DNA from: Planctomycetia bacterium
GTDB taxonomy: Bacteria > Planctomycetota > Planctomycetia > Pirellulales > PNKZ01
Length of the DNA: 64,000 nucleotides
Assembly (NCBI GenBank): GCA_021413845.1
Contig: JAIOPP010000008.1
Span: 62,001 to 126,000 of the forward strand
Reading direction: 5' to 3'
Positions within the stretch are counted from its first letter, which is position 1. Every line of letters begins with the position of its first letter. Both the position numbers and the translations under genes were made by a program. Below, piece after piece: positions 37,220 through 64,000 of the stretch. The notes under the pieces are model-generated. The model did no database searches, had not been told where the DNA came from, and was given only the letters and a program-made list of their open reading frames with translations.

Positions 37220-37514
37220 GGGCGATCTCAATCGGCGAGGCAGGAGGGAGGCGAGCGGCAGGGTGGGCGCAGAGGGATGCGCCGAGTCTGGGGTAGGAAA
37301 AATCTATCAGCGCTAGTTTATGTTGTTTAAGAGGGGGAAAACAAGTCTATTTCAGTGCGAATGACCGCATGCCGGCTGCTATCTGCACTCACTTTCTTAG
37401 ATGGTTTTCCGGAATAGACCTTCTCCTAGAATAAATGTCGGCGATACGGCGAGCGGAAAGTCTTCAATTTCGCCCGGGCCGGCGTTCTCGGCACTCAAAG
37501 TAAGGAATGTGGAT

Positions 37515-37850
37515 ATGACGTACATGGCAGAGAGCATGCCCGAGCCGACCCGTGAGGCGCTCGACGGGCTGGGGGGCTCGATTGTCGTCGAGTTCGGAGC
37601 CGAATGGTGCCCGCATTGCCAAGCGGTGCAACCGGCACTAAAGGAACTTCTTACCGCCGCGCCGCAGGTGCGGCACCTCAAGATCGAGGATGGCCGGGGG
37701 AAACCGCTCGGAAGATCGTTTGCAGTGAAGCTCTGGCCGACCCTCATTTTTCTGCGCGACGGCGAGCAAGTGGCTCGCGTTACCCGACCAAGCGACCTCG
37801 AACTGCGCGAAGCGTTCTCTAAAGTAATAGGCACGTTCCACGTGCCGTAA
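37515..37850 (+). CDS. Thioredoxin-like protein with a repeat-derived C-terminus
   Basis: A 112-residue thioredoxin-fold protein with the active site WCPHC (AEWCPHCQAVQPALKEL) and the cis-proline strand KLWPTLIFLRDGEQV. No signal peptide is evident from this start, so it is probably a cytoplasmic dithiol oxidoreductase. The ATG (MTYMAESMPEP) follows AAGGA with nine-base spacing; the 38 codons of open frame upstream look non-coding. The last eight residues and the stop codon (VIGTFHVP-stop) are encoded by the left arm of a 170-bp inverted-repeat element, so the native 3' end has probably been replaced. Confidence 0.9.
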   Translation: MTYMAESMPEPTREALDGLGGSIVVEFGAEWCPHCQAVQPALKELLTAAPQVRHLKIEDGRGKPLGRSFAVKLWPTLIFLRDGEQVARVTRPSDLELREAFSKVIGTFHVP

Positions 37851-37992
37851 CCACCAGCGGCATGGCCGCGCATTCCGGAGCGCGCGAAGAATCCCCCGCT
37901 CGCCGAAGAGGGGGCTCGATGCGGCGGAGCGATACGGCTGAGCGATCCCGGCGGCGCTCGTGGCTGACGGCACGTGGAACGTGCCTGCTACT
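37823..37992. mobile_element. 170-bp MITE-like element with 26-bp inverted ends
   Basis: The ends 37823-37848 and 37967-37992 are inverted copies matching at 24 of 26 positions. Each arm also contains the self-complementary GGCACGTTCCACGTGCC. The interior (about 118 bp) has no open frame of note. The left end lies inside the thioredoxin gene. No transposase is near, so it would be non-autonomous. No target-site duplication could be confirmed by eye. Confidence 0.65.
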
Positions 37993-38143
37993 AACAGTTC
38001 GACGAGCGGGGCGTTTGCCGCCGCTTGAATTCGGCGCTTGAATTACGCAAGGGGGGACGTGACACTAGCGGACGCTCCCGCTGGTCGCCGCGACTTCGTC
38101 GACCTCCGCTTCCGCACTCGTCCCTCCTCCCCAAGGCCCACCG

Positions 38144-63240: not shown

Positions 63241-64000
63241 ATGATTCGTGTCTGTCGAACTTCAGTCTTGGTCGGTCTCTTGCTGGTCGGCTTTGCGTCG
63301 GCCGCTCCGGTCGAGGCGTATGCGGCGAAGGGCTATGAAAAGCTCGACGAAATGGCGGTCGATCGCTGGGCGAAGCTCCGCGAAACCGAGCGCTATCAGC
63401 TCAACATCGCCGAGAAATACTACCGCGAGCAGAACTGGGCGGTCGCCGCCGGCGAGTACGAAAAGTTCGTCACGCTCTATGAAACGAGCGAGGGCTGCTC
63501 CTACGCGCAAATGAAATGGGCCAACTGCCAAGTCAAAATCAAGAAGCTGAACACGGCCGTGAAGGACGGCTATCAAACGGTTATCGACTACTGGCCCGAG
63601 TCGGCCGACGCCGTCGCTTGCTCCTATCTGATCGGCCGCACCTATAAGGAAATGGGAGAGATACAGCAGGCCAAGGCCGCGTATCTCAAGCTGCTCGATA
63701 AGCACAACGGCGAGATGGTCGCCATCCTCGCGCGACTCGATCTGGCCGACTTGGCCCGCATCGAACAAGACCGCGGTCGGCAAATCGCGTTATTGAAAGA
63801 GTTGGTTCACAGTGCGCCGCGCGTCGGCGATGCCGGCCGGCAGATCGGCGAAATCTCGCGGACCTTGGCGATCTTGCTGTTCGAAGACGGTCTCTTCGCC
63901 GACGGCGTGGCCTCGATGGGCACTACCTGGAAAGAGCCCGAGCTCTCGTATTACCTGTGGCTCTACGTGCGCGAACCGCTCGGGCGTCTGATCGCGGTTC
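63241..64000 (+). CDS. Exported TPR protein, 3' end outside the window
   Basis: A signal peptide (MIRVCRTSVLVGLLLVGFASAAPVEAYA) and TPR-like helices (ERYQLNIAEKYYREQNWAVAAGEYEKFVTLYE; YLIGRTYKEMGEIQQAKAAYLKLL) are visible over about 253 codons with no stop before the edge. AGAGGTG precedes the ATG by seven bases. It starts 91 bp after the DUF4159 gene, so it may be the eighth operon gene or the head of the next unit; the partner proteins upstream have the same TPR character. Confidence 0.9.
   Translation, partial: MIRVCRTSVLVGLLLVGFASAAPVEAYAAKGYEKLDEMAVDRWAKLRETERYQLNIAEKYYREQNWAVAAGEYEKFVTLYETSEGCSYAQMKWANCQVKIKKLNTAVKDGYQTVIDYWPESADAVACSYLIGRTYKEMGEIQQAKAAYLKLLDKHNGEMVAILARLDLADLARIEQDRGRQIALLKELVHSAPRVGDAGRQIGEISRTLAILLFEDGLFADGVASMGTTWKEPELSYYLWLYVREPLGRLIAV

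Follow-up and report, generated by a model that had tools for sequence, protein, structure and literature searches.

A planctomycete thioredoxin gene whose last codons and stop lie within a REPIN

REPINs were defined by Bertels and Rainey (2011; PMC3116915), and passages of that article describe them, together with RAYTs, as two inverted REP sequences forming one long hairpin, dispersed in many copies, with a spacer less conserved than the arms and a RAYT gene flanked by the same REP. GTAG-tagged REPs that give TAG stops to flanking open reading frames (ORFs), and REPs at ORF ends, were reported in 2013 (PMC3733652) in sections that place the GTAG tag outside the stem and cover inverted dimers and intragenic REPs; GTAG repeats are listed there for the PVC superphylum. 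REPtrons and the recognition of GTAG are described in parts of PMC6006769. Rickettsia palindromic elements (RPE), which lie in frame within ORFs, are also palindromic and also add residues, according to sections of PMC3733652 in which RPE-4 and RPE-6 are filed under CGTC repeats, without a dedicated transposase.

The locus described here lies in a 64,000-nucleotide stretch of planctomycete DNA, analysed as a whole and called the window, and shares the features given above for REPINs with their RAYTs and for GTAG REP families. It differs from the REPINs in those passages of PMC3116915 by another hairpin sequence, a planctomycete host, a copy that overlaps a gene end, and distances of 119–144 nt or mostly 61–64 nt between hairpins. 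In contrast to the GTAG REPs of the cited sections of PMC3733652, the stop lies beyond the hairpin (CCG TAA), so that the protein gains eight residues; unlike the RPE described there, the element has a GTAG tag and a RAYT. The string GGCACG at word start was not found in the main text of PMC3733652. With GTAG REPs that supply stops already in print, the kind is known, and this locus is one more member of it.

A sequence-only reading had proposed a 170-bp MITE-like element with near-identical 26-bp inverted ends and small hairpins in its arms. Both structures were recovered: the ends form an inverted pair (37823–37848 and 37967–37992, 26 nt each, 92% complementary, 118 nt between them), and GGCACGTTCCACGTGCC is self-complementary in both arms. 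Within the window, this self-complementary 17-mer (up to three mismatches) is confined to the two arms, and its four matches (two arms on both strands) compare with 0.35 expected in shuffles. The consensus of 71 distinct arms from the genome, AAAGTAGYAGGCACGTTCCACGTGCCGT, conserves GTAG (97–100% per position) with a 2-nt gap to the stem, and a run of A (82–90% per position) precedes it in most arms. It bounds the unit better at 37821–37994 (AAAGTA... to ...CTACTAA), or at 37824–37991 if counted from the tetranucleotides only (Table 1). Folded as single-stranded DNA, the 176-nt segment 37820–37995 reaches −57.2 kcal/mol against −38.2 (sd 3.2) for shuffles (z −5.9), and the corresponding RNA fold gives −94.5 against −71.3 (sd 4.1; z −5.6). 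The pair search and the folds describe one long hairpin built from two GTAG-type REPs in opposite orientation, both of them a short palindrome with a 5′ tag and the hairpin GGCACGTTCCACGTGCC. This anatomy is that of a REPIN, in which two inverted REPs make up a non-autonomous element. Its right arm carries GTAG and its left arm GTAA (37824–37827), the only such tag among the 28 arms within one mismatch of the GTAACC subtype; this copy may perhaps no longer be able to move.

Table 1 Positions of the thioredoxin gene, the REPIN and associated features (window positions unless a locus is named)
Feature	Position	Strand	Remark
Thioredoxin-like gene	37515..37850	+	ATG 37515; open frame back to 37401; PF00085 8.1e-14
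TAA stop of the thioredoxin frame	37848..37850	+	Part of the GTAACC arm subtype, inside the left arm
REPIN, whole unit	37821..37994	.	Bounds follow the arm consensus
Left REP arm: AAAGTAATA + hairpin + GTAACC	37821..37852	+	Tetranucleotide GTAA here, not GTAG
Left REP hairpin GGCACGTTCCACGTGCC	37830..37846	+	
Spacer between arms	37849..37966	.	Own-genome BLAST of the whole unit matched mostly arms
Right REP arm	37963..37994	-	GTAG intact (CTAC at 37988-37991 on +)
Right REP hairpin, inverted	37969..37985	-	
CAGTTCGACGAGCGG (QFDER), probable displaced native C-terminal codons	37995..38009	+	Directly right of the element
Copies of the ~600-bp unit	L015:1671-2285, L003:1773-2391, L010:1682-2287, L030:1697-2322, L037:727-1325		
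Copies of the ~600-bp unit, continued	L193:586-1200, L198:574-1200, L200:555-1200, L202:1368-1982		

Other copies of the ends were searched for in the host's own genome (G000; 7.08 Mb, 167 contigs, 99.59% complete), as the sequence-only reading had suggested. At up to one mismatch, the hairpin GGCACGTTCCACGTGCC occurs 189 times, 95 forward and 94 reverse, while a reversed control pattern gave 0 and 0 matches. At least 62 exact inverted hairpin pairs are present, 39 with 115–145 nt and 23 with 60–90 nt between the hairpins (control 0); the actual distances are 119–144 nt in one class and mostly 61–64 nt in the other. Allowing up to one mismatch, 74 distinct pairs were found among the fetched own-genome loci. 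The repeat is therefore dispersed and high in copy number, and it lies close to many unrelated genes; several contigs also end a short distance from REPINs. A search with the whole element found no match in three genomes of the same genus (G001–G003) at E 0.001 and, with up to 14 candidates scored per genome, weak ones (up to about 46 bits) in at least six of the 56 genomes other than the host's own, as expected of a lineage-specific REP. Rfam gave no match for loci L015, L003, L001 and L036, of which L015 and L003 carry the unit described next. A repeated unit of ~600 bp was also observed between two REPINs in nine fetched places, 72–92% alike, along with partial copies; contigs C64, C139 and C92 start within it. 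The unit possibly represents a composite mobile element of larger size.

A profile search with PF01797 identified six Y1 transposases in the genome. One of them, a probable RAYT gene (G000:C67:63956-64552), lies between two REPINs of the same hairpin (63786-63950 and 64629-64792) and ends at a TAG that belongs to the adjoining GTAG. The protein scores 25.8 bits with PF01797 (Y1_Tnp), above the Pfam cut-off of 23, and 64.2 bits (1.2e-17) with the NCBIfam model REP_Tyr_transpos, whose curated cut-off of 80 it does not reach. Its strings NHVH and YIAENP are similar to motifs tabulated in parts of PMC6006769, and its sequence matched no solved structure at 0.001. Relatives, some of them weak, were found in 23 of the 57 genomes searched, own genome counted. 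Of 28 fetched RAYT loci of relatives, 13 were scanned, and in every one of these the gene has tagged hairpins on one side or both. The GTAG tag occurs in 12 of them and L168 has GTGG tags alone; in L166 and L182 the tagged hairpins are limited to a single side. The stems are mostly of another sequence than GGCACGTTCCACGTGCC. The same scan, a raw search without a chance expectation, also returned single GTGG hairpins at three unrelated Y1 loci (L031, L032 and L034) and a GTAG pair at a fourth unrelated own-genome Y1 locus. A second RAYT of the genome (G000:C167:20720-21304, L180), 66% identical, adjoins a related but different hairpin, GGCACGCTCCGCGTGCC. Overall, these loci agree with the published view that every RAYT is paired with a REP of its own.

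The frame of the thioredoxin gene (ORF 37401–37850, +), which ends in ...LREAFSKVIGTFHVP, traverses the left arm, and its last eight codons (VIGTFHVP) and stop lie inside the element. The sequence-only reading was right on this point. Read in this phase an arm gives GTA-RTA-GGC-ACG-TTC-CAC-GTG-CCG-TAA, with the TAA set by the GTAACC subtype; 76 of 148 arms meet a stop in the same phase, 14 of these at the first codon. VIGTFHVP is thus just what the arm encodes in this phase, and the data give no hint that it was selected. Thirteen open frames of at least 70 codons in the fetched own-genome loci (L017, L027 and L040 merged) end in GTFHVP, and the 12 besides thioredoxin are all without a Pfam match at E 0.01. 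No second gene with an end of this type was found among the fetched own-genome loci; other genes ended this way could be missed, since thioredoxin itself scores below our codon-score threshold (see below). The five plasmid records that matched did so in the coding part of thioredoxin only.

Comparison with orthologues, likewise proposed earlier, found the tail in none of those read. In relatives of the order, 11 loci were collected and nine C-termini read (L055 and L058, translated out of frame, were left out); VIGTFHVP is present in 0 of 9. It is also present in 0 of 80 matches in named genomes, and the exact hairpin in 0 of these 80 loci (80 kept of 86; the last ones are distant thioredoxins, and the set holds no second copy of the host species). 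The element was not seen 3′ of the gene in three orthologues of the same genus, which end in AAFDERPA (G002), KLLDAPAS (G003) and KQFDAE (G001). Native tails differ among orthologues in sequence and length, and the sequence after the gene in relatives is unlike that of the window, with no long empty-site alignment.

Directly right of the element, CAGTTCGACGAGCGG encodes QFDER. Joined to ...GCG TTC TCT it would read AFSQFDER, in register with AFKQFDAE and AFAAFDERPA, and the right flank matches the end of the G002 gene over GTTCGACGAGCGG and that of the G001 gene over CAGTTCGACG. An in-register test was run on six orthologues with ten offsets and two join points, all picked after seeing the sequence; its best match was 12 of 12 nt against G002, a score reached by 4 of 60,000 random window stretches. 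The locus was excluded from this null, and a null that might have contained it gave 3 of 20,000. In unconstrained local alignments, the less sharp of the two tests, the right flank matched the L048 end moderately (15 of 4000 random stretches as good) and the L051 end weakly (112 of 4000); the other four orthologue ends gave no support (683 to 2585 of 4000). The displaced-tail match is only 12–13 nt long. CAGTTCGACGAGCGG is probably a remnant of the native thioredoxin tail, a reading based on this short match, and the REPIN was most likely inserted into the last thioredoxin codons, displacing that tail.

Combined, these observations make us confident that a REPIN, presumably moved by a RAYT, inserted near the end of the thioredoxin gene and gave it a new tail and stop. 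The REPIN would have moved as single-stranded DNA, with the genome's own RAYT as the probable catalyst, which would recognise the arms by their GTAG tag and hairpin. After the Ser codon of ...LREAFS, or a codon later, one copy would have entered an element-free site of the form ...GAAGCGTTCTCT(AAA)CAGTTCGACGAGCGG.... The frame would then enter the arm as AAA-GTA-ATA-GGC-ACG-TTC-CAC-GTG-CCG-TAA and, because of that phase, translation would end after VIGTFHVP at the stop borne by the arm, leaving the native tail QFDER... untranslated downstream of the element. The genome-wide copies and the tail-less orthologues support the earlier proposal of an insertion that created a new C-terminus. That the element replaces the end of the gene needs amendment: the end is new, and the REPIN seems to have been inserted before the last few codons, given the likely native remnant directly to its right.

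The proposal of a MITE-like element stands as far as a mobile repeat is concerned; its type is a REPIN with a matching RAYT rather than a MITE of known DDE origin. A MITE moved by a cut-and-paste DDE transposase could account for the inverted ends around a non-coding core and for the TAA on both sides, which would be its target duplication (37820–37822 and 37992–37994). However, the run of A before GTAG belongs to the family consensus and is common to most arms, so the flanking TAA is probably not a duplication specific to this copy; each arm is itself a GTAG-tagged hairpin, and the transposase gene found between two copies is of the Y1 type. We therefore regard a DDE origin as highly improbable. 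It is scarcely credible that no insertion took place and that the structure is a native 3′ hairpin of the thioredoxin gene, either a terminator or an mRNA-stabilising structure: the predicted fold is strong, but the same sequence recurs near many unrelated genes of the genome and does not follow the gene in any of the three orthologues from the same genus. Many other REPINs do lie directly after gene ends, which makes a secondary role in mRNA possible.

One could add to the RAYT-mediated insertion that VIGTFHVP has a function in this thioredoxin and was favoured by selection. The arm is read through without interruption up to a stop that is in place, but orthologue tails vary in sequence and length, as expected of a dispensable end, and the extension is a mere translation of the arm in a phase in which about half of the 148 arms meet a stop. 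We consider selection for it very unlikely, and the new tail would instead be neutral.

The stops of other genes next to REPINs were compared as well. A simple codon score was derived from 27 long ORFs in the window, with a threshold of 0.28 set after seeing the ranking, and gene ends were counted where a confident gene pointed toward a REPIN, with its stop from 150 nt before the element onward (63 sides of the 74 pairs). As a raw count without a random expectation, 22 of the 63 gene ends have a stop that uses REP bases: at position −1 in 11, −2 in one and 0 in one, and as the TAG of GTAG in nine. The 12 stops at −1 and −2 comprise 11 TAA and one TGA. None of the 63 has its stop deeper in the REP than GTAG. 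Thioredoxin (score 0.23, below the threshold), accepted as a gene from its homology, would be the sole deep case seen.

A frame that enters AAAGTAG...GTARCC would tend to meet a stop soon, be it a TAA completed by a T ahead of the arm, the TAG within GTAG, or the stop that follows ...GTFHVP. In this lineage the REP end could accordingly be viewed as a ready-made gene cap, with RAYT insertion aimed at stop codons or such landings selected, an idea we offer tentatively and think unlikely. If it were true, REPINs could settle on gene ends with little harm. The pile-up of stops at the REP border raises the question of whether RAYT insertion is aimed at stops or just tolerated there. The thioredoxin locus clearly illustrates how a mobile repeat can remodel a protein end, here in a planctomycete, and it probably still holds a remnant of the displaced native codons.
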